A stretch of DNA of 64,000 nt, from IMG/VR virus record IMGVR_UViG_3300042691_039251, positions 25,679 to 89,678 of that record; one strand, given 5' to 3'. A program made the position numbers and the translations under genes. The stretch is from a virus. This document shows, in pieces, positions 2,639 to 58,029 of the stretch (position 1 is the stretch's first letter; every line of letters starts with the position of its first letter). The notes beneath the pieces were generated by a model. It was not told the DNA's origin and made no database searches. It saw only the letters and a list, made by a program, of their open reading frames with translations.

Positions 2639-3552
2639 TGAAATTTCATCTAAGTTCGAATTTAGATCCTTGGATAGGATATTCTCTTCTCAAACACTAC
2701 AACTGCTCAGACCACCGCTCTTGCGTCGTCTATTCTCTCTGGGGAGATCGTGGGTACATAACTTACCTCAAGTACTCTCTCATGTCTTTGATCTCATCTA
2801 CTGACGTCAGCGACAGAGCAGATATTTTAATTTTCGTGAGCAGCGATCTCTACGAAGAAACGGTAGATTGTCTAAACGGAATAATCGGCAAAGACTGTTT
2901 TGTGAGAGTAGAGAGCTCTCAAAAATATCTCATTCATACTCATCCTTCCACTCAGAAGTACGATAATTTTCTCATGCTTGACACTGATTCTTTTTTCTTG
3001 GGACGAGACACGATATTCGAGAAGATGGAAAAGTTTTATGCAAACCCTGAGAACTCAAAGACGATGTTCATGGTCAAAGACTTTATCGATTCTAAGACTG
3101 CTTTCTGGACGAGAAAGTCGAGCCACTGTGAAGCACCTTCTCTAGAGAGATATGAATCTTTTTACAAAAAGTCAATCGGTGAAGAGGAGTTCGAGAAGAT
3201 GATGAAAAAGAACTGGTGGGTTTCTTACGCAGTGGCCTACAGCAAAGAGCACTTCAAAGAAGAGGGTTACTCTTCGTACGCAGCCGAAAATTTTCAAATG
3301 GGCCAAGGATGTGATGAGACAGTCTTCCTGACTTGGGCTCACAAAAATTCATATGATCTGCGTGGCATTGAAAAGTTCTTTCCCTGCTACGATCAGTACA
3401 TATCATCTGGAGAGTCAGTATCAGATTTTTTTACAGAGCAGAACATTGCGGCTCTCTATCATCCACTAGTCGGAGAAAATGCTTTGAACATTTGTAACGT
3501 CTTTCTTTTAGCCGAGATAGAGAAGAAGCACGAAGCACTTTTAGAACATTAG
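2638..3552 (+). CDS. Glycosyltransferase-like protein with DTD motif
   Basis: 304 residues. NFLMLDTDSFFLG places a DxD motif (DTD, 115-117) after a hydrophobic strand, as in GT-A fold enzymes. The N-terminal CVVYSLWGDRGYITYLKYSL region resembles the start of glycosyltransferases that scan several acceptor or donor contacts. QMGQGCDETVF in the second half fits the conserved acidic region near the active site in these small phage GTs. Starts in a TAATG overlap with the upstream gene. Donor and acceptor are unknown. Confidence 0.6.
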   Translation: MKFHLSSNLDPWIGYSLLKHYNCSDHRSCVVYSLWGDRGYITYLKYSLMSLISSTDVSDRADILIFVSSDLYEETVDCLNGIIGKDCFVRVESSQKYLIHTHPSTQKYDNFLMLDTDSFFLGRDTIFEKMEKFYANPENSKTMFMVKDFIDSKTAFWTRKSSHCEAPSLERYESFYKKSIGEEEFEKMMKKNWWVSYAVAYSKEHFKEEGYSSYAAENFQMGQGCDETVFLTWAHKNSYDLRGIEKFFPCYDQYISSGESVSDFFTEQNIAALYHPLVGENALNICNVFLLAEIEKKHEALLEH

Positions 3553-3555
3553 AAC

Positions 3556-4368
3556 ATGAAAGCAGTATGGGTCCTAGAAAATTTCAAGGGCGAGTTCTCG
3601 ATGCCATCGATAGAGCTCAGAGTCTTCATCACCTCGGTGGTCCAGTGGAAGAGGTTCTATCCTAATTTTGAGACTGTTCTTTTTTGTACTCAAGACGTCT
3701 ACCAATACCTCAAATCTTTAGACGCGGATTCCCTTTGGGATCAAATAGACACTGACATTCTAGAAACTGAAGATTCAGTCGACAGAAAAAGGTTCTGGAC
3801 CGCAGGAAAATACAAAGTCATGAGGGGCCTCGATGCTCCTTTCGTCCTCATGGACTGCGATCTCTTTCTCACTCAGAAGATAGATGAATCCACATTCGAG
3901 AACGATCTCGTGGTCTGCCATCCAGAGAATGCTGAATTCTACCACTACTTCTGGCAGAAAGAGCACGTCTTCGAAAGCGTAGGAATCGAGAGGCTCCCAG
4001 AAGATCCAGAAGGAAAAGCCTGGAACGTGAGCTTCTTCTATGTAAAAGATCAGAGCTTCAAGGATCTCTATTTAGAGACAGCTTGGGACTGGATGGAGAG
4101 GCTTTCAAAATACGAAGGAGATGAAGAGTGGCAGAACGGCTACATGCTCTACTGCGAACAGAAGCTCCTCTACGATCTATCTCTGAGATCTGGGATCAAG
4201 ACTCATTATCTGAAAAGCGGAATCTCTGATGAAAACCCGATTCACCTCGGAGAAGAAAAGAGGAGAGAAGACCTCAAAACGACTCACCTTCCCTTCCGAG
4301 AACACCAAGCTCGAGAGGCTGTGATCGGATCAGGATTCGAGGCGAAGATAAATGAAATAGTAGGTTGA
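3556..4368 (+). CDS. Glycosyltransferase-like protein with DCD motif
   Basis: 270 residues, three bases after the previous stop. FVLMDCDLFL gives a DxD motif (DCD, 100-102) after a hydrophobic strand. The preceding KRFWTAGKYKVMRGL segment matches the W-x-G-K-x-x donor-binding helix seen in several DxD glycosyltransferases. Third GT-A-like gene in this operon. It is followed by about 200 bases without a gene and a terminator, so it is probably the last gene of the left transcription unit. Specificity cannot be read from sequence. Confidence 0.55.
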   Translation: MKAVWVLENFKGEFSMPSIELRVFITSVVQWKRFYPNFETVLFCTQDVYQYLKSLDADSLWDQIDTDILETEDSVDRKRFWTAGKYKVMRGLDAPFVLMDCDLFLTQKIDESTFENDLVVCHPENAEFYHYFWQKEHVFESVGIERLPEDPEGKAWNVSFFYVKDQSFKDLYLETAWDWMERLSKYEGDEEWQNGYMLYCEQKLLYDLSLRSGIKTHYLKSGISDENPIHLGEEKRREDLKTTHLPFREHQAREAVIGSGFEAKINEIVG

Positions 4369-4763: not shown

Positions 4764-4847
4764 GGCCTGGTGGAGAAATTGGTAGACTCGCCATCTTGAG
4801 GGGGTGGTTCCAGCAATGGAGTGAGGGTTCGAATCCCTCCCAGGTCA
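4764..4847 (+). tRNA. tRNA-Leu (anticodon GAG)
   Basis: Folded by eye: acceptor GGCCTGG/CCAGGTC with one G-U pair, short D arm, anticodon stem CCATC/GGTGG with loop TTGAGGG (anticodon GAG, 4798-4800), a long variable arm (TCCA/TGGA) as expected for class II tRNAs, T arm GAGGG-TTCGAAT-CCCTC, discriminator A. CCA is not encoded. It reads CUC/CUU codons. Confidence 0.92.
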
Positions 4848-4852
4848 CAGAT

Positions 4853-4928
4853 CGTAGGGTAGAGCAGATGGTAGCTTGCGAGGCTCATAACCTCGAGGTC
4901 GTGGGTTCGAGTCCCACCCCTGCAACCA
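4853..4928 (+). tRNA. tRNA-Met (CAT), initiator type
   Basis: Anticodon stem CGAGG/CCTCG with loop CTCATAA (CAT at 4886-4888), T arm GTGGG-TTCGAGT-CCCAC, discriminator A, encoded CCA (4926-4928). The first acceptor pair is a C-A mismatch (4853 with 4924) and the D stem has A11-T24. Both are hallmarks of bacterial initiator tRNAs rather than elongator tRNA-Met or tRNA-Ile(CAU). Of the three consecutive G-C pairs usual at the base of the initiator anticodon stem, two are present and the third is A-T. Confidence 0.88.
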
Positions 4929-4929
4929 A

Positions 4930-5003
4930 GGTCTTGTAGCTCAGTTGGTTAGAGCGCTTCCTTGACATGGAAGAGGTCACCGGTTCGAATCCAGTCGAGA
5001 TCA
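4930..5003 (+). tRNA. tRNA-Val (anticodon GAC)
   Basis: Acceptor GGTCTTG/CGAGATC pairs with two G-U wobbles. Anticodon stem CTTCC/GGAAG with loop TTGACAT gives anticodon GAC (4964-4966). The T loop TTCGAAT is normal, but the T stem ACCGG/CCAGT carries one C-A mismatch. Discriminator A; CCA not encoded. It starts two bases after the CCA of the preceding tRNA, so the cluster is surely co-transcribed. Confidence 0.88.
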
Positions 5004-5026
5004 CATTTTATTCCTTGAAAAACCGA

Positions 5027-5052
5027 GTCCCGATTTCTATCGGGGCTTTTTT
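5027..5052 (+). terminator. Rho-independent terminator after the tRNA cluster
   Basis: Stem GTCCCGAT/ATCGGGGC (5027-5034 with 5039-5046, one G-T pair), TTCT loop, then six T residues. Preceded by an A run. Confidence 0.88.
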
Positions 5053-5101
5053 CGTAGAAGTAAACTTTTCGTACCCTTTGCATATAACTTGCATGAAACA
5101 T

Positions 5102-5132
5102 TTTTCTTTTCATCTTCTTTTTTCTAAAATTG
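5102..5132 (+). promoter_or_regulatory. Candidate promoter, variant of the phage consensus
   Basis: TTTTCT at 5102-5107, 17 bases, then TAAAATTG at 5125-5132, seven bases before the start codon at 5140. It resembles the TTTTCT-N18-TATCTTTT promoters elsewhere in the window but with one base less spacing, and lies directly downstream of a terminator. Confidence 0.45.
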
Positions 5133-5139
5133 TTCAAGA

Positions 5140-5550
5140 ATGAGGAAGATCAGCCTAAAATATAGATTGAGGAAGTTCAGAGTCAGATTTAGAAGAGTCT
5201 GGGACTTCGCTACTCTGAACAGCAAGCGGTACCGCTTGGACGGTGACATTGATCTAGCAGTGAAAATTGTGATCAAGATGATGGTCAAAGAGGGATGTGA
5301 GATCAGGTACTCACAGATGCAGGGATTCTTCCACCTCAATAGGGGTCACCTCTACGCTAAAATTTCTGAATCCACTGTCACCATCATCAATGGAAAATAT
5401 GCTTATGAGCTCATGCTTCCGCCTCAAATAGGATACGACCTCTATTCTCGGATCAAAGCGACAAATGAGAGGCAGCTGCTTAGAGCTGAAAGAGAACACC
5501 GAGAGAGGATAGAAAAGTCACTGCAGGGGATTTATGAAAGCTTAGACTAA
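5140..5550 (+). CDS. Unknown basic phage protein
   Basis: 136 residues. A strongly basic N-terminus (MRKISLKYRLRKFRVRFRR) is followed by a compact alpha/beta-looking core and a charged helical C-terminus (LLRAEREHRERIEKSLQ), perhaps a coiled coil. No motif recognised. First gene of the run of small genes after the tRNA terminator. Confidence 0.7.
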   Translation: MRKISLKYRLRKFRVRFRRVWDFATLNSKRYRLDGDIDLAVKIVIKMMVKEGCEIRYSQMQGFFHLNRGHLYAKISESTVTIINGKYAYELMLPPQIGYDLYSRIKATNERQLLRAEREHRERIEKSLQGIYESLD

Positions 5551-39585: not shown

Positions 39586-40068
39586 ATGGAAAAGTTAACT
39601 CTGAAACTGTTTGAAATTAGAGATCTCAATGCAGAGATCAACGGACTGGTGAACGTGCAGACCGGAGAAAAAGTAAGAAAAGGTCTTCTCGATGAGAAGC
39701 TCTCTATGACTCAAAAATACTGGCTCTCTGATCTCGGTAAAAAAGCAAAAGCTCTTACTGACGAGGTTGAGCCTCTTCGCAACGAGCTGATCACCAAGTA
39801 TGGAGAGAAGACGTCTGACGAGACGGTGGAGGTCCTCCCATGGATCGAGGAGAAGAACGAAGAAGGAGAGGTTACTGCAAGAAAGCCGAATCCTAAGTTC
39901 CTCGATTTCGAGAGAGAATACTCTGAGCTCTTCAACCAGGAGAGAGAATTCGAACACCGCGTCTTCTTCATCGAAGACTTTGAGGATGTGAAGTCTGAAA
40001 ATGATTATACCATCTTCCGGAAGTTCTGTACTTCTCGCGAGGAATCACCCTTACAGGTGGTAAAGTAA
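39586..40068 (+). CDS. Charged helical phage protein, unknown
   Basis: 160 residues, mostly helical and highly charged. LTLKLFEIRDLNAEINGLVN and EFEREYSELFNQEREFEH-like stretches suggest a coiled-coil protein; similar proteins occur in phages of Bacteroidota without known function. Two hairpins follow the stop, and the gene is the last before the large non-coding region, so it probably ends the late fibre transcription unit. Confidence 0.65.
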   Translation: MEKLTLKLFEIRDLNAEINGLVNVQTGEKVRKGLLDEKLSMTQKYWLSDLGKKAKALTDEVEPLRNELITKYGEKTSDETVEVLPWIEEKNEEGEVTARKPNPKFLDFEREYSELFNQEREFEHRVFFIEDFEDVKSENDYTIFRKFCTSREESPLQVVK

Positions 40069-40084
40069 TTCAAGATCAAGGTAG

Positions 40085-40118
40085 AAAGAGGGAAGCACTT
40101 AAGGTTCTTCCCTCTTTT
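40085..40118 (+). terminator. Strong Rho-independent terminator after the fibre region
   Basis: 11-bp perfect stem AAAGAGGGAAG (40085-40095) with CTTCCCTCTTT (40107-40117), 11-base loop and a T tract overlapping the stem. A second AT-rich hairpin, AAAAAGGT (40131-40138) / ACCTTTTT (40153-40160), follows. Confidence 0.85.
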
Positions 40119-40156
40119 AGCCTCCCTTGAAAAAAGGTCGAAAAAAAATGAAACCT

Positions 40157-40188
40157 TTTTCGGCCACCCAATAAAATACTTAGTTCTT
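40157..40188 (+). promoter_or_regulatory. Phage-type promoter for a non-coding transcript
   Basis: TTTTCG (40157-40162), exactly 18 bases, TAGTTCTT (40181-40188). Each box differs by one key base from TTTTCT and TATCTTTT. No coding frame of useful size follows before 40581, so the expected product is an RNA beginning near 40192. Confidence 0.5.
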
Positions 40189-40189
40189 T

Positions 40190-40567
40190 GGAATAATTAA
40201 CAAAAACCTTGATCTTGAAGCGGCTGAGAGAGCTACATCAACTACTATGAGCAAGGAAGGAGCTTAGGCTTCCTCCAAAAAATCTTCATAGCGGCGACAG
40301 CGAAGAAGAACCACTGGTCTAAAGTCGTGGCCATCGGGAGCCCTAACCGAAACCCTCTCTTAGGAAATTCTCAGGATTAACTCATATTCAAACCGAAGCG
40401 GCGAAAAGAGATACTTCTAATTGGACTGAAAAACACTCTTCTCGAAAATCCTCGGCTTGACTTCTTTGAAAAGGGCTGCTGAACAGTGTAGAGACACTTC
40501 TGCTTTCCGTTCTCTTGGGTCTTGACGATACTTTCGGCGAGGCCCTTTTCTTTTTCCGCCGCTTTTT
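40190..40567 (+). ncRNA. Candidate structured non-coding RNA upstream of the RNA ligase-Ro60 operon
   Basis: About 375 bases with no convincing coding frame, starting after a promoter match and ending in a GC-rich stem plus TTTTT. Helices seen: CTATGA (40245-40250) / TCATAG (40286-40291), enclosing GGAAG (40255-40259) / CTTCC (40269-40273); AGTGT (40485-40489) / ACACT (40494-40498); and AAGCGGCG (40396-40403) with CGCCGCTT (40557-40564), which would bring both ends of the 3' half together before the T run. The closing stem, 3' T tract and position two genes before a Ro60 homologue recall bacterial Y RNAs. No tRNA-like module was identified by eye, so Y RNA identity is inference. Confidence 0.45.
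40535..40567 (+). terminator. Possible terminator of the non-coding RNA
   Basis: CGGCG (40535-40539) pairs with CGCCG (40557-40561), 17-base loop, followed by CTTTTT. It competes with the long-range AAGCGGCG/CGCCGCTT pairing and overlaps the next promoter. Confidence 0.45.
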
Positions 40568-40577
40568 ACTATCTTTT
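40546..40577 (+). promoter_or_regulatory. Phage promoter TTTTCT-N18-TATCTTTT
   Basis: TTTTCT (40546-40551), 18 bases, TATCTTTT (40570-40577), then only ACT before the ATG at 40581. The predicted transcript would start at or next to the start codon. Drives the small gene, RNA ligase and Ro60 homologue. Confidence 0.7.
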
Positions 40578-40580
40578 ACT

Positions 40581-40775
40581 ATGATACACGTAAAATTCAG
40601 AGACACCGATCCGGACACCGGAATCATCACCCAGGACGAGGTGATAGTAATGAGCGAAAACCCCGACCGAGCCACCTGGGCCAAGATGACAATTGAAAAA
40701 GACTGGTTCGATCACAACCCTGACCACAACCGAGAATTCTACTTATTTGACACAGAAACAGAACAGGAATTCTAA
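40581..40775 (+). CDS. Small acidic protein, first gene of the RNA ligase operon
   Basis: 64 residues from the ATG at 40581, chosen because it follows the promoter by three bases; earlier in-frame ATGs lie inside the non-coding RNA. Sequence MIHVKFRDTDPDTG then DRATWAKMTIEKDW, acidic and compact. No family recognised. One base separates its stop from the RNA ligase start, so it may act with or regulate that enzyme. Confidence 0.65.
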   Translation: MIHVKFRDTDPDTGIITQDEVIVMSENPDRATWAKMTIEKDWFDHNPDHNREFYLFDTETEQEF

Positions 40776-40776
40776 T

Positions 40777-41832
40777 ATGGAAAGAAAATTAGCAAGCATC
40801 CAAGTGATCAAGGAGATCCTTCCCATCGAAGGAGCTGACGCGATCGAACTCGCAGTGGTCAACGGCTGGAAAGTCGTGGTAGCCAAAAATGTCGGACATC
40901 AAGCAGGCGACTACGTAGTCTATTGTGAGATTGATTCATTCTTGCCCATCAGGGAAGAATTTGAATTTCTCAGAAAGTCTTCTTATAGGAAGATGGGGGA
41001 GCAGGAGGGTTTCAGGTTGAGGACGATCAAGCTCAGAGGGCAAGTCTCCCAGGGACTCATTCTTCCAATGTCAGTCTTCGGAGATTTTAGTTGGACTGCT
41101 TACGAGGGTCTGGACGTCACAGAGAAATTAGGCATAGTAAAATATGAACCTCCGGTGCCGGCAGCTCTCGCAGGTGTGGCCAAAGGTCTCTTTCCGAGCT
41201 TCCTCCGAAAGACAGATGAGGAACGCATTCAAAACCTCGCTTCAGACTATGAAGAAATGCAAAAGCACTCTTACTACATCACTGAAAAGCTCGATGGTAG
41301 CTCAGCGACCTTTTACTATAAGGACGGTGAATTTGGAGTCTGTAGCAGAAACTTAGAGCTCCTCGAGACAGAGGAAAACACTTTTTGGAAAGTGGCTCGA
41401 GAGCTGAACCTCGAGGAGAAAATGAAGTCCCTCGAAAAGAATGTTTGTCTCCAAGGAGAGCTGATAGGAGAGGGGATCCAAGGAAATCCTTACAAGCTGA
41501 AGGGTCAGATAGTAAAGTTCTTCAATGCTTACAAGATCGACGATGGTGAGTACTACGATTTTCTCTCAATGGCAACTCTGCTCGACTACCTCGGTTTGGA
41601 AACAGTCCCGGTGTTGAACACGAACTACGAACTTCCACCCACCATCGAAATACTTCTCAACGATGCTGATGGAAAATCAAGACTGAACGATAATGCAGAC
41701 CGAGAAGGACTCGTGATCAGAAGCCATGATAGAAAAATATCATTCAAAGCAATCAGCAACAAGTTCTTGCTCAAGGAAGACGACAGGCCTTCCAAGGGGG
41801 AACGCTTAAACTGGGAAAACACTAAAAACTAA
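40777..41832 (+). CDS. RNA ligase, DRB0094/Rnl5-like
   Basis: 351 residues from the ATG at 40777, just after the preceding stop. N-terminal half (1-130) is an OB-like domain (SIQVIKEILPIEGADAIELA, GDYVVYCEIDSFLP, LRTIKLRGQVSQGLILP), as in Deinococcus Rnl5. The nucleotidyltransferase domain follows: motif I EKLDGSS with adenylated Lys171, motif IV EGLVIRS (about 310), motif V FKAISNKFLLK (about 325-335). Family members use ATP to seal RNA nicks or 3'-OH/5'-P ends. It precedes a Ro60 homologue by nine bases, implying a joint role in RNA repair or quality control. Confidence 0.88.
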   Translation: MERKLASIQVIKEILPIEGADAIELAVVNGWKVVVAKNVGHQAGDYVVYCEIDSFLPIREEFEFLRKSSYRKMGEQEGFRLRTIKLRGQVSQGLILPMSVFGDFSWTAYEGLDVTEKLGIVKYEPPVPAALAGVAKGLFPSFLRKTDEERIQNLASDYEEMQKHSYYITEKLDGSSATFYYKDGEFGVCSRNLELLETEENTFWKVARELNLEEKMKSLEKNVCLQGELIGEGIQGNPYKLKGQIVKFFNAYKIDDGEYYDFLSMATLLDYLGLETVPVLNTNYELPPTIEILLNDADGKSRLNDNADREGLVIRSHDRKISFKAISNKFLLKEDDRPSKGERLNWENTKN

Positions 41833-41841
41833 ACCAACTAT

Positions 41842-43464
41842 ATGTCAAGACTAACTCCTTTTTCAGACAAGAAACTCGCGGATCACGAACAATACCGTGA
41901 AGAGAGAGTAGAGAATTACATGGGCGGAATGAGCTACCGATTAGGTCCTCTGGAGACTCTAAGAATCGTGGCCGCAAGTTCCATCTTCGGCGAGCCACAG
42001 TACTACCGAGACGGCATCGGAGCTGAGAAGGCTCTAAAAAAGGATGCCAACGTTTTAGAAGTCTCGATCTTCGAAGATCTCGTAAAAGACAAGAGAACAG
42101 TCGCCGAAGTCTTTACCGAAGCGATCGACAGAGCATTAGATGCTGATTTTAAAGCAACGTTGGATCTTGCTCTCACTCTAAGGACTGAGTACATGATGAG
42201 GTTGAACCCATCAGTGATCTGGATCAGAGCCTCTCTCCATCCAAAGAGAGCAGAGTTCAACGAGAAGAATCCGGGTTACATGAAGGAGATTGGAAAAAAG
42301 ATCGTATTGAGGCCGGACGACGTCACTAACCAATTCGATTATTATGCATACGTGAAAGGATCGAAGAAAGGCCTTTCCTCCCTCGTGAAGAGAACTTGGG
42401 CAGAGACTCTGGAGAGCTTCTCTCGCTACCAATTGAACAAATACAAGGGCAAGAAGCTGATAGATCTCGTGAGGATCTCACACGCTCATTCTGATGACAT
42501 TACTGAGCTCGTAAAAACAGGCACTATCAAGGTCGAGGAGTCCGAGAAGACTTGGGAGATCTTGAGATCTGAGGGAAAATCTTGGAAGGAGATCTTGGAA
42601 ACGATCAAGATCCCTCACATGGCCCTCCTCCGCAACCTCCGCGGAATCTTCAAAGAAATAGATAACAGGGAGATCTTGGAAAAAGTTCTAACTGATCTAA
42701 AAGCTGGAGTTCCTTACGGAAAACAGTTCTCCTTCAGATATTGGTCGGCACACAAAGCAGTCTCTTCTGAAGACGGAGTGAATTTCAAAATACCGATCCT
42801 CGATGCTCTCGAAGAATGCATTGATCTAGCGGTAGAGAACTCACCCAGATTAAGAGGCCGAGTAATGTCTCTCTGCGATAATAGCGGATCTGCATGGGGA
42901 AGCTGCAATTCAGAATATGGATCGGTCACCGTAGCAGAGATCGCGAACCTCTCGGCTTTGATCACCGGAGCCAATGCCGAAGAAGGCCACGTCGGAGTCT
43001 TTGGAGATAAATTAGAAACTCGTGGAGTTTCCAAAAGGAACGGCATCATGGCCCAACTGGAAGAATCGAATGCAATTGGCAACACGGTCGGACAGAGCAC
43101 TGAAAACGGGATCTGGCTCTTCTGGGACAAAGCAATCAAGAACAAGGAGCACTGGGACACCGTCTTCATCTACTCTGATATGCAGGCCGGCACCGGAGGC
43201 CTCTACGGAGTCAATGCTGAAGACTATAAAGAGTTCAGACATAAAGACGGCAGACACATCGACGTCCTTGCTCTGGTCCAAAAATACCGAAGAGAAGTAA
43301 ACTCAAGAGTGAACGTCTTTTCGGTCCAAGTTGCAGGTTACGACAATTCAGTCCTTCCGGGTAACATTTACCGAGGAGCAATTCTCACAGGTTGGACAGG
43401 CAAAGAATCACTCTACGCCCAGGAGATCATCAAAATCTGGGACGAAATAGAAAATATAAAATGA
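41842..43464 (+). CDS. rsr: Ro60/Rsr homologue (TROVE domain plus vWA domain)
   Basis: 540 residues, the full length of Ro60 (about 530-540). Residues about 20-330 have the TROVE pattern of helical HEAT-like repeats: LETLRIVAASSIFG, LTLRTEYMMRLNPSVIW, LVKRTWAETLESFSRYQLNKYKGK, LVRISHAHS, IPHMALLRNLRGIF. Residues from about 335 form a von Willebrand A domain with a MIDAS motif DNSGSAWGS (346-354) and later FIYSDMQAG. In other organisms Ro60 is an RNA-binding ring that sorts misfolded or damaged RNAs, usually with a Y RNA. Here it follows an RNA ligase and a candidate structured RNA. Stop overlaps the next small frame (ATGA). Confidence 0.88.
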   Translation: MSRLTPFSDKKLADHEQYREERVENYMGGMSYRLGPLETLRIVAASSIFGEPQYYRDGIGAEKALKKDANVLEVSIFEDLVKDKRTVAEVFTEAIDRALDADFKATLDLALTLRTEYMMRLNPSVIWIRASLHPKRAEFNEKNPGYMKEIGKKIVLRPDDVTNQFDYYAYVKGSKKGLSSLVKRTWAETLESFSRYQLNKYKGKKLIDLVRISHAHSDDITELVKTGTIKVEESEKTWEILRSEGKSWKEILETIKIPHMALLRNLRGIFKEIDNREILEKVLTDLKAGVPYGKQFSFRYWSAHKAVSSEDGVNFKIPILDALEECIDLAVENSPRLRGRVMSLCDNSGSAWGSCNSEYGSVTVAEIANLSALITGANAEEGHVGVFGDKLETRGVSKRNGIMAQLEESNAIGNTVGQSTENGIWLFWDKAIKNKEHWDTVFIYSDMQAGTGGLYGVNAEDYKEFRHKDGRHIDVLALVQKYRREVNSRVNVFSVQVAGYDNSVLPGNIYRGAILTGWTGKESLYAQEIIKIWDEIENIK

Positions 43465-44849: not shown

Positions 44850-44997
44850 CTACTGGGACATCGACATCCTGATAGAATACCGAAAGAGAAAAAAGAAAGA
44901 GATCGATCGGTTGGAAAAAACCCTCTGGTCTCGGATCTGGAACTGGAAGAAGATCAAGAAATTGAAAGAAGATCTCGCAAAAATAAGATACGTATGA
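44818..44997 (+). CDS. Small basic helical protein, unknown
   Basis: 59 residues from ATG 44818 (alternatives 44824 and 44833). The frame extends further upstream but would overlap the previous gene heavily. Trp/Lys-rich helix in the second half (LWSRIWNWKKIKKLKEDL). It ends in an ATGA-type overlap with the phosphoesterase gene. Function unknown. Confidence 0.5.
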   Translation: MGMNEMLEENSYWDIDILIEYRKRKKKEIDRLEKTLWSRIWNWKKIKKLKEDLAKIRYV

Positions 44998-45656
44998 GAA
45001 TCAAGATTAAAAATAAAGAGAAGGTCTGGATCTTCAGCGATCCACACTACAACCACAAGAACATCTGCAGAGGAGTCACCAACTGGAGGATGGCTGATGG
45101 TTCAGTTCCTGAAGCACAGACCCGAAATTTCAAAGATCTAGATCAGATGAACGCGGCCATCGTCAATAACATCAACGATACGGTAGGCCAGCAAGACATC
45201 CTCATCTGTTTAGGAGATTGGTCCTTCGGAGGCTTTGAGAGCATCACAGAGTTCTGGGATCGTCTGATATGTAAGAACATATATCTCATACTTGGGAACC
45301 ACGATCACCATATCGAGAATAACCGAGATGACATCGAAAAGCTCTTCTTGGAGGTCGGACACTACGCCACGCTGGAAATTGAAGACGGTTACAAGTTCAG
45401 GTTGATGCACTACCCGATCTCATCCTGGGACGGGTTGAGAAAAGGCGTGATCCACCTCCACGGCCACTGTCACCTTCCGACTGATAAGAGGTTTGGAGAA
45501 GGAAAGAGGATGGACGTTGGCATGGACGGGCACCCAGAGTTCAGGCCCTATGATCTCAGAAGGGAAATCATTCCTCTGATGAACAAGAGGCCTATCGGAT
45601 CAGAGCTCGGTTCAGAGGACCACCACATGGACGACATTAAAGGAATTGTAGGATAA
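44994..45656 (+). CDS. Calcineurin-like metallophosphoesterase
   Basis: 220 residues. Motifs in order: FSDPHYNH (D16, H18; the D-x-H site), LGDWSFGG (GDxxxxG), LILGNHDHH (GNHD), LMHYPI and HLHGHCH (metal-binding HGH). This is the compact phage and bacterial MPE family whose members hydrolyse phosphoesters such as 2',3'-cyclic nucleotides or nucleic-acid ends. Given the RNA ligases nearby, an RNA end-healing phosphatase or cyclic phosphodiesterase role is plausible but inferred. The C-terminal 40 residues lie outside the core. Confidence 0.85.
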   Translation: MRIKIKNKEKVWIFSDPHYNHKNICRGVTNWRMADGSVPEAQTRNFKDLDQMNAAIVNNINDTVGQQDILICLGDWSFGGFESITEFWDRLICKNIYLILGNHDHHIENNRDDIEKLFLEVGHYATLEIEDGYKFRLMHYPISSWDGLRKGVIHLHGHCHLPTDKRFGEGKRMDVGMDGHPEFRPYDLRREIIPLMNKRPIGSELGSEDHHMDDIKGIVG

Positions 45657-55384: not shown

Positions 55385-55793
55385 AAAGCTCTACATAGTA
55401 CGAGGTCTTCCAGGATCTGGAAAATCTACATTTGCTGAAGCCTTAGTCGGTTCAGATTTTTTAGTTTGTGAAGCTGACAAATTCTTTTATGACAGAGAAG
55501 GCAACTACAATTTCGATGGTTCAAAATTAAAAGAGGCTCACGAATCATGTAGAAGCCGAGTAGAGACCTACATGAAAGATTCTCTGGTGAACGACCAGTT
55601 CTATAGAAAGATAGCAGTCTCTAACACTTTTACTCGTGAATGGGAAATGCAGCCTTACGTAGATCTTGCGGAGAAGTACGGTTACCAAGTCTTCTCGGTG
55701 ATAGTTGAAAACAGACACGGCGGAAAAAATGTTCATGGAGTTCCAGACGAAGTGATTGAAAAGATGAAAGAGAGATTTGAAATAAAATTATGA
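55377..55793 (+). CDS. P-loop kinase, polynucleotide 5'-kinase-like
   Basis: 138 residues. Walker A RGLPGSGKST (9-18) followed by the Asp-containing VCEADKFF lid/substrate segment and a later VSNTFTREWEMQPYVDLAEKYG, the pattern of T4 Pnkp kinase and NEDD4-BP2-like kinases. It lacks the T4 Pnkp phosphatase domain. The four-base overlap with the T4 Rnl1-like ligase suggests that they form a kinase-ligase RNA repair pair. The separate HAD and metallophosphoesterase genes at 45-46 kb could supply the missing 3'-end healing step. Confidence 0.8.
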   Translation: MNKKLYIVRGLPGSGKSTFAEALVGSDFLVCEADKFFYDREGNYNFDGSKLKEAHESCRSRVETYMKDSLVNDQFYRKIAVSNTFTREWEMQPYVDLAEKYGYQVFSVIVENRHGGKNVHGVPDEVIEKMKERFEIKL

Positions 55794-56860
55794 AGTTTGA
55801 TCTAGATATCCTGAACTCTTACTTAGAAAAAGGTCTCTTGGAAAAGAACGATCATCCGAACCTCCCTCTTTCTATTTGGAACTATTCTCGGACTTGTCAG
55901 TACTCTGGATCTTGGGATGAGATCACTCTCAAGTGTCGAGGACTGATCTTGGACAATGAGGGGAATGTCGTTGCTCGAGCATTCGACAAGTTCTTCAACT
56001 ACGAGGAGGTCGTCGATCAGGTTCCTGTCAGAGGAGACTACGTTTATGTCCAAGAAAAACTGGACGGTTCTCTAGGAATCTTGTTCCACTATGCAGACGA
56101 TTGGCACATGGCCACGAAGGGATCATTCACATCAGACCAAGCGAAAAGGGGAATGGAGATCATCAAGTCAAAATATCAGATGAGAACTTTTCTTCCTCAG
56201 ATGACTTATCTCTGTGAGATCATCTACCCTGAGAACAGGATCGTGGTCGATTACAGAGGAAAGGAAAAAGTAGTTTTCATCGGAGTGACCTCAGAAGGAG
56301 AAGAGCTCCACTGGACCATGGCTCAATCGATCTTCATCGCAACAGGGATTGAGAAAAAAGACAGAGTAGAGACTGAACAGCATTTCTCTTTCGGTCCTGA
56401 ACTCTATCGTTCTCTAAAGGAAAAACAAGAGGGTAACCGAGAAGGCTACGTCCTCAGGTTCCAGCCGGGTAATTTTAGAATGAAGATCAAGTTCGAAGAG
56501 TACGTAAGGCTTCACAGAATTTTGACAGGCTTTTCTAACAAAGACATCTGGGAGTACCTCAAAGACAAGAGAGACTTTAATAAGTTGTTGGACAGAGTTC
56601 CTGACGAATTTGACTCTTGGGTGAGAGAGACAGCTGAAGACTTGAATACGAAATATGAAAGCATCCAACGAGATTATGTTTCGCACTTCTTAAAAATTAG
56701 AGAAAAGACTCCTGACAGAAAATCTTTCGCTGAAGAGGCAAAGAAGTTCCCGCATTCTGGCATACTTTTCGCGATGTTAGATGGGAGAGAATATGACGAG
56801 CACATTTGGAAAATCATCAAACCTGATTATCAGAAACCCTTTTGGAAGAGAGAAGATTAG
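55790..56860 (+). CDS. RNA ligase, T4 Rnl1-like
   Basis: 356 residues, close to T4 Rnl1 (374). Upstream signature CRGLILDNEGNVVARAFDKF, motif I YVQEKLDGSLGI with adenylated Lys90, motif III/IIIa region VFIGVTSEGEE, motif IV EGYVLRF (about 215), motif V FRMKIKFEEYVRL. T4 Rnl1 reseals tRNAs cut by host anticodon nucleases such as PrrC after Pnkp heals the ends. The adjacent kinase gene supports the same role here. The C-terminal tRNA-specificity domain appears present but diverged. Confidence 0.88.
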   Translation: MKFDLDILNSYLEKGLLEKNDHPNLPLSIWNYSRTCQYSGSWDEITLKCRGLILDNEGNVVARAFDKFFNYEEVVDQVPVRGDYVYVQEKLDGSLGILFHYADDWHMATKGSFTSDQAKRGMEIIKSKYQMRTFLPQMTYLCEIIYPENRIVVDYRGKEKVVFIGVTSEGEELHWTMAQSIFIATGIEKKDRVETEQHFSFGPELYRSLKEKQEGNREGYVLRFQPGNFRMKIKFEEYVRLHRILTGFSNKDIWEYLKDKRDFNKLLDRVPDEFDSWVRETAEDLNTKYESIQRDYVSHFLKIREKTPDRKSFAEEAKKFPHSGILFAMLDGREYDEHIWKIIKPDYQKPFWKRED

Positions 56861-56889: not shown

Positions 56890-58029
56890 ATGATGAACAT
56901 TGACGAACAATATAAGAATCTCCTCAGAGACATTCTAGAAAACGGAAGGGCCAAAGAAGACCGAACTGGAACTGGAACACTAAGCGTTTTCGGAAGACAG
57001 ATCAGGCATCGAATGAGAGACGGCTTTCCTCTTCTCACCACGAAGAAGATGGCCTGGAAGTCAATAGTAATAGAGCTCCTCTGGTTCTTGCAAGGCAGAA
57101 CCGATCTCAGATATCTCCTCGCAAATGGTTGCCACATTTGGACCGGCGACGCTTACAAAAAATGGGACAAGAACTACGATTACGAACATCCACCCTTCAG
57201 CGGCCCCTATCCACCGAGGCTGACGCACAAAGAATTTGAGGAAAAGATCCTCACCGATCCCGACTTCGAGAAGATGTACGGAGAACTCGGACCGATCTAC
57301 GGTAAGCAATGGAGAAAATGGGAAAGAAAAGCAACAAGAGAAGAAAAGATCGTTGATCCTGGAGTCTATAGCGTTTTCATTGACCAGGTTCAAATCCTGC
57401 TCGATGAACTCGTATCTAACCCTGATAGCAGACGTTTGATGGTCAACGCTTGGAATGTTGGAGAACTGGATCAGATGACTCTACCGCCTTGCCACTACGG
57501 TTTCCAAGTCTACACTCGAGAGCTCACGCCTCAGGAAAGATACAGATACTGGTTCGATCACAATTACGAGACAGGAATGGAATACAATGATGAACAGGTA
57601 CCAGACTATGAAGACTCTTACTACTCACCTACTCCGAAGAGAGCAATCTCTCTCATGTGGAACCAGAGATCGGTGGATACTTTTCTAGGACTGCCTTTCA
57701 ACATTGCTTCTTACGCTCTTCTCTTGAAAATCATCGCTGAGATCACCGGTTACATGGCTGACGAGCTCATCGGAAACTTGGGAGACACTCACCTCTACAT
57801 GGATCACATAGATCAGGCAAAAGAACAGCTCGCTCGAGAGCCTTTTGGATCTCCTAGGTTGGAACTGAACACTGAGTTCTGGTGCCCAGGCACTGAGGAA
57901 GGCTGTATCGGAACACCGGGAAGCTACACCAAAAACTTCGATGCTCTGGTCAAAAGCTTCGACGTAGAAGACTTTCAGATATTTCATTACCGATACCATC
58001 CGGCGATCAAGGCGCCACTTTCAAATTGA
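56890..58029 (+). CDS. thyA: Thymidylate synthase
   Basis: 379 residues. EDRTGTGTLSVFGRQIRH, FPLLTTKK, ELLWFLQGRTDLRYL, LGPIYGKQWR, LPPCHYGFQ with catalytic Cys201, and FNIASYALL and GDTHLYMDHIDQ make a complete ThyA. It converts dUMP to dTMP with methylene-tetrahydrofolate. It is about 100 residues longer than E. coli ThyA (264), with inserts after WTGDAYKKWD (about 100-125) and around 215-250 (TPQERYRYWFDHNYETGMEY). Unlike T4 td, the gene has no intron. Supplies dTTP for phage DNA. Confidence 0.95.
   Translation: MMNIDEQYKNLLRDILENGRAKEDRTGTGTLSVFGRQIRHRMRDGFPLLTTKKMAWKSIVIELLWFLQGRTDLRYLLANGCHIWTGDAYKKWDKNYDYEHPPFSGPYPPRLTHKEFEEKILTDPDFEKMYGELGPIYGKQWRKWERKATREEKIVDPGVYSVFIDQVQILLDELVSNPDSRRLMVNAWNVGELDQMTLPPCHYGFQVYTRELTPQERYRYWFDHNYETGMEYNDEQVPDYEDSYYSPTPKRAISLMWNQRSVDTFLGLPFNIASYALLLKIIAEITGYMADELIGNLGDTHLYMDHIDQAKEQLAREPFGSPRLELNTEFWCPGTEEGCIGTPGSYTKNFDALVKSFDVEDFQIFHYRYHPAIKAPLSN

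Follow-up and report, generated by a model that had tools for sequence, protein, structure and literature searches.

A phage locus in which a Ro60 homologue directly follows an RNA ligase raises the question of whether the viral protein has a partner RNA of its own, and what the two might do together. In cells, Y RNA serves the Ro60 ring as a gate and as its tether to PNPase (PMC4726728, PMC8394870). The locus lies in a stretch of 64,000 nucleotides (hereafter the window), positions 25679-89678 of the 89.7-kb virus record IMGVR_UViG_3300042691_039251, in which a preliminary description had proposed a viral RNA quality-control or repair device composed of the ligase, Ro60 and a candidate Y-like RNA. 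Our comparison with related loci indicates, with a probability of about 0.88, that the non-coding stretch upstream of the two genes encodes the partner of the phage Ro60, in the form of two tandem RNA modules; protein and RNA would then make up a viral counterpart of the cellular Ro60-Y RNA ribonucleoprotein. We observed the protein fold, the RNA structure as supported by covariation and the genomic linkage, and from these we infer binding, partnership and function.

Directly 5' of Ro60 in three related loci (L004, L005 and L007) lie 413-522 nt of non-coding DNA with no ligase in between; a fourth locus, L003, resembles these with less clean bounds, and all four share short blocks with the window. 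The blocks define the motif GAWGCGG-N10-UACWUC, a 24-nt sequence with two copies in the 64-kb window and none in 100 shuffles (expected 0.00). Modules precede Ro60 in L003 (two), L004 (two), L005 (three), L007 (two) and Bacillus phage G (five), the last having two more nearby and thus seven in all; the phage G record annotates no RNA before its Ro60 gene, gp540. The family shares one layout, namely an outer helix ending in G-A/U-C, a 5' loop AGCGG(n), an inner helix of 5-10 bp, a UAC(U/A)UC element, an apical loop of ~20-220 nt and a 3' loop ending in AAnAUUC in the consensus. The helix sequences vary from copy to copy, with complementarity kept. Across 75 model matches both sides have changed in 16 of the 17 pairs, 84.5% of the cells are paired against 38-44% when slid, and the covariation score is 0.737 against 0.10-0.19, in an alignment whose fitting to the model favours such values; the helices were first found by eye and with a simple pairing script. 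The comparative evidence that the helices are real is strong, and minimum free energy (MFE) folds of the single sequences of modules A and B reproduce them. An additional pairing of GAAG with CUUC inside the motif was rejected, as its two W positions do not covary.

The module is also linked to Ro60. When viral contigs were scanned with nothing but the DNA motif, 120 stretches came up, of which many are expected by chance; among those with the full structure, many have Ro60 nearby. Of 33 viral records, 11 carry both module and Ro60, 7 the module only (fragments of 24-70 kb), none Ro60 only and 15 neither (Fisher p 1.7e-4), a consistency test and no survey, since the records were picked via the motif. 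The bacterial test was independent of the motif, with 49 loci chosen by protein similarity. Of these, 47 had enough sequence, and in 21 of them the model of the module, R1, which was trained on viral loci only (window module B included), had a same-strand match no more than 700 bp upstream of Ro60. Two further matches (L143, L153) fall on the other strand, at the 3' end of Ro60 or just past it. That the modules are chance folds in an AT-rich spacer therefore has a negligible probability: the folding energy of the whole stretch is indeed unremarkable (z -1.15) and for that reason forms no part of our evidence, which is comparative, but covariation, recurrence of the motif and linkage to Ro60 all contradict such an explanation.

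The protein is, by profile, predicted fold and conserved residues, a full-length Ro60, as had been proposed. TROVE (PF05731) is the sole Pfam family above its cut-off (24.6 bits against 23), and its model is matched by 31 of 32 family members; PHROG 850 ('RNA-binding protein') matches over residues 18-518 (5e-37). Among solved TROVE proteins the family profile matches 9kop (1e-53, positions 11-519) and also Ro60 (1yvp) and Deinococcus radiodurans Rsr (2nvo). An AlphaFold2 model, for which the window and the fetched loci were the only sequence input (predicted local distance difference test 79, predicted template modelling score 0.78), resembles the Ro60 ring fold in its structure matches (9kop, E 3.5e-15; 2nvo, 4.5e-11; 1yvp, 4e-10), and the Ro60 dimer of Thermus phage phiLo (9l5y) is also among the best of these. 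Pfam vWA models did not reach E 0.01 against the window protein alone; a vWA domain is indicated by the whole-fold match to Ro60 and Rsr and by the residues of the metal ion-dependent adhesion site (D346-x-S348-x-S350 and D446), which are invariant in 32 homologues. The closest relatives are viral (63-69% identity), and in a tree of 32 proteins five from viral contigs, including that of the window, form a supported group adjoining Flavobacterium, Chitinophagales and one planctomycete. Identity is 52% to Bacillus phage G gp540, which groups with Bacillota and other bacteria, and ~40% to the nearest Deinococcus homologue found (on a D. taeanensis plasmid); deeper joins are unsafe, with long branches elsewhere in the tree. 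Two of the phages that carry this protein also encode a second, distant TROVE protein (~24% identity), at L007 11953-13581 and in L075 (G007:C1:34778-35791).

Table 1. Features of the Ro60 locus (window coordinates) and modules associated with tRNAs in other loci (coordinates of each locus).
Feature	Position	Strand	Description	Basis or relatives
Long collagen-like tail protein	ends 39533	+		open reading frame (ORF) list
160-aa ORF	39586-40068	+		ORF list
Non-coding stretch	40069-40580		512 bases without a convincing gene	between the 160-aa and 64-aa ORFs
Predicted Y-RNA module A	40209-40380	+		motif scan; MFE; homologous module A in L003, L004, L005, L007, L028
Module A outer helix	40209-40218/40371-40380		10 bp	
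Module A 5' loop	40219-40223		AGCGG	
Module A inner helix	40224-40232/40355-40363		9 bp	
Module A element	40234-40239		UACAUC	
Module A 3' loop	40364-40370		GAAAUUC	
Predicted Y-RNA module B	40388-40460	+		R1; MFE; family covariation
Module B outer helix	40388-40396/40452-40460			
Module B 5' loop			AGCGG	
Module B inner helix	40402-40410/40436-40444			
Module B element	40412-40417		UACUUC	
Module B apical loop			short	
Module B 3' loop	40445-40451		AAAAUCC	
Terminator-like hairpin and T-rich tail	40517-40555	+		window z -2.9
64-aa ORF	40581-40775	+	between RNA and ligase	without family match
ATP-dependent RNA ligase	40777-41832	+	DRB0094/Rnl5 type	TIGR02306; Pfam PHA02142 OB and RNA_ligase; NgrRnl
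Ro60/Rsr homologue	41842-43464	+	TROVE ring and vWA domain, 540 aa	profile, fold and residue evidence
Modules with permuted-tRNA loop	L008 (Bacillus phage G) 3718-3883; L110 9479-9851, 6376-6523 (minus); L095 2093-2241 (minus)			
Modules abutting tRNA genes	L012 608-699; L058 14307-14385; L075 5131-5218; L110 5904-5990, 6376-6523		L012: between tRNAs 537-609 and 701-773	

As for the form of the RNA, we propose a separate transcript of ~350 nt, roughly 40200-40555, that would carry two tandem Ro60-binding modules, with the Ro60 gene downstream. The region had been described as a non-coding stretch of 375 bases with helices and a terminal T run; it is non-coding, although somewhat longer (Table 1), the helices are borne out by covariation in relatives, and a hairpin with a T run does lie near its end. 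This hairpin, terminator-like, may close the non-coding transcript; a stricter terminator rule of the scan tool did not list it, and equivalents stand between the module array and Ro60 in L003, L004, L005 and L007 (z -3.5 to -5.7). Such hairpins favour a free RNA over a leader. At nearly all loci the modules do precede Ro60 and point the same way, as would be expected if Ro60 bound them in its own mRNA leader and repressed itself, but with hairpins in between, two intervening genes in the window, and other modules kilobases away or within tRNA arrays, we regard this arrangement as very improbable. We observed, in addition, a perfect 14-nt inverted repeat (40069-40082 against 40206-40219) by which the bases directly 3' of the upstream gene's stop complement the 5' arm of module A, with a hairpin in between; it may be due to chance or to a regulatory alternative pairing.

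Several observations weigh against a Ro60 partner RNA at this site. None of the 4227 Rfam families, at gathering or relaxed thresholds, gave a Y RNA match in the window stretch, so that the search with known Y RNA models suggested by the preliminary description came back empty; the relaxed matches were to families at chance level. The promoter that had been claimed finds no support, with 3 sigma-70-like sites in the stretch against 3.4 expected from shuffles. Module A matches R1 in its core only (21 bits), owing to its long apical loop (~115 nt, structured, without a recognisable tRNA-like domain), and the 62.9 bits of module B come from a copy that sat in the training set. Some of the bacterial loci are metagenome bins that may include phage contigs, and nothing convincing was found with R1 near some more distant phage Ro60 genes (L009, L010 and L195); the module is thus tied to part of the Ro60 family. 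We nevertheless consider that the conserved position, the covariation and the co-occurrence of motif and Ro60 together give strong support to the pairing of Ro60 with a Y-like RNA.

The window RNA is filed, on its sequence and layout, as a Y RNA of a kind outside Rfam and not as YrlA, because the layout matches that of YrlA, yet the loop letters differ and the YrlA model finds no match. By Y RNA we mean a non-coding RNA that is encoded with a Ro60 gene, has a stem of helix, internal loop and helix, and is predicted to bind Ro60. The YrlA consensus consists of an outer helix, AUGCu, an inner helix, CUA, a T arm, a closed hairpin replacing the acceptor stem, a D arm, the inner helix, AAaAcUuG and the outer helix. 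At its gathering threshold of 69 bits YrlA (RF02553) has no match in 40060-40590, and the loops of modules A and B contain no T arm with D arm. The sole YrlA match in the record (28 bits, 4897-4955) spans a tRNA-Met/tRNA-Val junction and was rejected as an artefact of two neighbouring ordinary tRNAs that arises from the permuted-tRNA topology of the model. Below its cut-off the model also matches in 7 of 14 control genomes, and YrlA matches inside tRNA arrays were not counted, being partly artefacts. Sub-gathering YrlA matches upstream of Ro60 (E 1e-3 to 3e-8) were found in Xanthomonas phage Olaya, Streptomyces phage Quantum, Caulobacter phage CcrColossus, Rhizobium phage Y65, Deinococcus taeanensis and D. 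gobiensis; these six loci have more tandem copies, with variant loops GUUGCGA or GGUGCGA before and UACUUC after. Rhizobium phage Y65 (L203, 714-1901) has at least seven GUUGCGA-type modules in the ~1.2 kb before Ro60, several with tRNA-like loops, and a Spirochaetes bin (L147, WRKI01000323.1, ~2898-3706) has four tandem YrlA-like matches ~190 nt apart together with R1 modules, directly 5' of Ro60.

How might such an RNA work? Each module, with its outer helix, asymmetric internal loop and inner helix, would dock one Ro60 ring, a reading that follows from the YrlA-like layout and the co-occurrence with this Ro60 subfamily. The variable apical loop would be the effector or substrate end, which in relatives can be a permuted tRNA and in the window is a structured domain in module A and a short loop in module B. 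As in the Ro60 particles of Deinococcus and Salmonella, the RNA might gate the ring and tether it to a partner, an idea to which we give somewhat less than even odds. The most likely role would be the handling of structured or tRNA-like RNAs during infection.

The association with tRNAs is conspicuous in related phages. In six modules the apical loop is a circularly permuted tRNA that has an acceptor stem of 6-7 bp, a T arm and a D arm, in the order T arm, 3' acceptor strand, linker of 0-25 nt, 5' acceptor strand, D arm; these were found by direct search for the three parts, and ARAGORN made no permuted-tRNA call on the duplicated loops. The permuted tRNA of phage G has an encoded ACCA, and one phage contig with Y modules and Ro60 (L095) also has a permuted two-piece transfer-messenger RNA (RF04321) at 4941-5170 on the minus strand. 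In phage tRNA arrays, modules lie within a few bases or fewer of a tRNA gene, in most cases on both sides and otherwise on one, as though tRNA processing set them free. Modules flush between tRNA genes and six modules around permuted tRNAs are what would be expected if the RNAs tethered Ro60 to tRNAs or their mimics, shielding the tRNAs of the phage or drawing off host anticodon nucleases or modification enzymes, and Wolin and colleagues have suggested that YrlA may compete for nucleases (PMC7790460). In the window, however, neither module has a tRNA-like domain and the three tRNAs (4764-5004) have no module, and we are doubtful of this account. The upstream ligase suggests another role, in which ligase, Ro60 and Y RNA would act together: Ro60 would spot broken structured RNA or tRNA and present the nick, and the ligase would seal the 3'-OH and 5'-phosphate ends. 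For jumbo phages, repair by TROVE proteins with RNA ligases has been discussed (PMC7824862), the rtcBA repair operon of Salmonella includes Rsr and Y RNAs (PMC7790460), the nine-base gap suggests co-transcription of ligase and Ro60, and the phage also has a calcineurin-like phosphoesterase (44994-45653) and a second RNA ligase. But the adjacency is particular to this phage, related Ro60 loci have no ligase, and the ligase of the cellular operons is RtcB, a different enzyme, so that we consider a dedicated repair unit unlikely.

The ligase itself is, judging from its profiles and motifs, an RNA ligase of the DRB0094/Rnl5 type with an OB domain: TIGR02306 matches at 199.2 bits (cut-off 151), an N-terminal OB-fold domain and the KLDG nucleotidyl-transfer motif are present, and structures of the Naegleria RNA ligase (NgrRnl) match at 9e-78. 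The earlier description had placed such a ligase nine bases before Ro60, and the distance from its end to the Ro60 ATG is exactly that. As one conserved device, ligase, Ro60 and Y RNA find no support. Among 80 loci kept of 188 ligase relatives in viral contigs, with flanks of up to 5 kb, none has Ro60 or the module nearby save the second, near-identical contig of this phage, and the ligase is absent from every other Ro60 locus examined; the gene order ligase-Ro60-Y RNA was thus found in no more than one phage lineage. In relatives the RNA directly precedes Ro60, so that the ligase and the small ORF have the look of an insertion peculiar to this phage. Relatives of the phosphoesterase give 30 matches among the other ligase loci, so that the usual company of the ligase looks like a repair set, which Ro60 looks to have joined in this phage. 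The second ligase, of the T4 Rnl1 type (PHROG 562), is encoded at 55790-56857, with thymidylate synthase next to it at 56890-58029. PADLOC listed no defence family.

Neither Ro60 nor Y RNAs are in themselves new to phages. There are reports of Y RNAs in mycobacteriophages, and a Listeria phage has been suggested to have them (PMC12282133, which cites Chen et al. 2014 for their existence in some phages); TROVE proteins of phages have been described in print, with a possible part in RNA repair (PMC7824862), and the PDB includes one phage Ro60 structure (9l5y). In the open-access literature, a subset that makes weak evidence of novelty, we found neither the module, its tandem arrays and tRNA-flush positions nor phage modules around permuted tRNAs with 6-7 bp acceptor stems. 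Our result gives viral Ro60 a likely partner RNA and a predicted docking motif supported by covariance, and the model of the module extends the prediction to uncultured phages and several bacterial phyla. Bacillus phage G, with its modules near gp540 and one of them around a permuted tRNA, makes the role of viral Ro60 testable. Tandem docking sites suggest several rings per RNA, an arrangement that we did not find in the open-access literature consulted on the topic. We speculate, tentatively, that a large unrecorded class of Y RNA serves viral Ro60, in tandem arrays that are sometimes flush between tRNA genes and sometimes around permuted tRNAs, and loads the protein on tRNA mimics or precursors, protecting or repairing phage translation RNAs, here with a dedicated ligase.

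Compared with known systems, the locus shares with the Salmonella rsr-yrlBA-rtcBA operon (PMC7790460) the adjacency of Ro60, Y RNA and an RNA ligase, but the ligase there is RtcB and that of the window an ATP-dependent enzyme of the DRB0094 type in a neighbourhood that is not conserved; no RtcA or RtcR was seen among the window neighbour genes examined. Other phage Ro60/TROVE proteins (Bacillus phage G gp540, Thermus phage phiLo 9l5y, crAss001 and the actinophage 'Ro-like' proteins) belong to the same family as the window protein, and the phiLo structure is of the protein dimer. The Rsr-Y RNA-PNPase complex of D. radiodurans (RYPER), in which Y RNA docks by its stem and tethers the effector by its loop (PMC4726728, PMC8394870), likewise combines a Ro60 ring with a partner RNA; its effector is PNPase. 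YrlA of Salmonella and Mycobacterium differs in having AUGCu where the new module has AGCGG, and the window copies stand apart from it in being tandem and without a tRNA-like domain or YrlA match. The two are nevertheless alike in the order of their parts, in the GA/UC pairs closing the outer helix, in an asymmetric internal loop with AA..UU on the 3' side, in CUA or UAC after the inner helix, in adjoining Ro60/Rsr genes and, in some relatives of the module, in the permuted tRNA domain.

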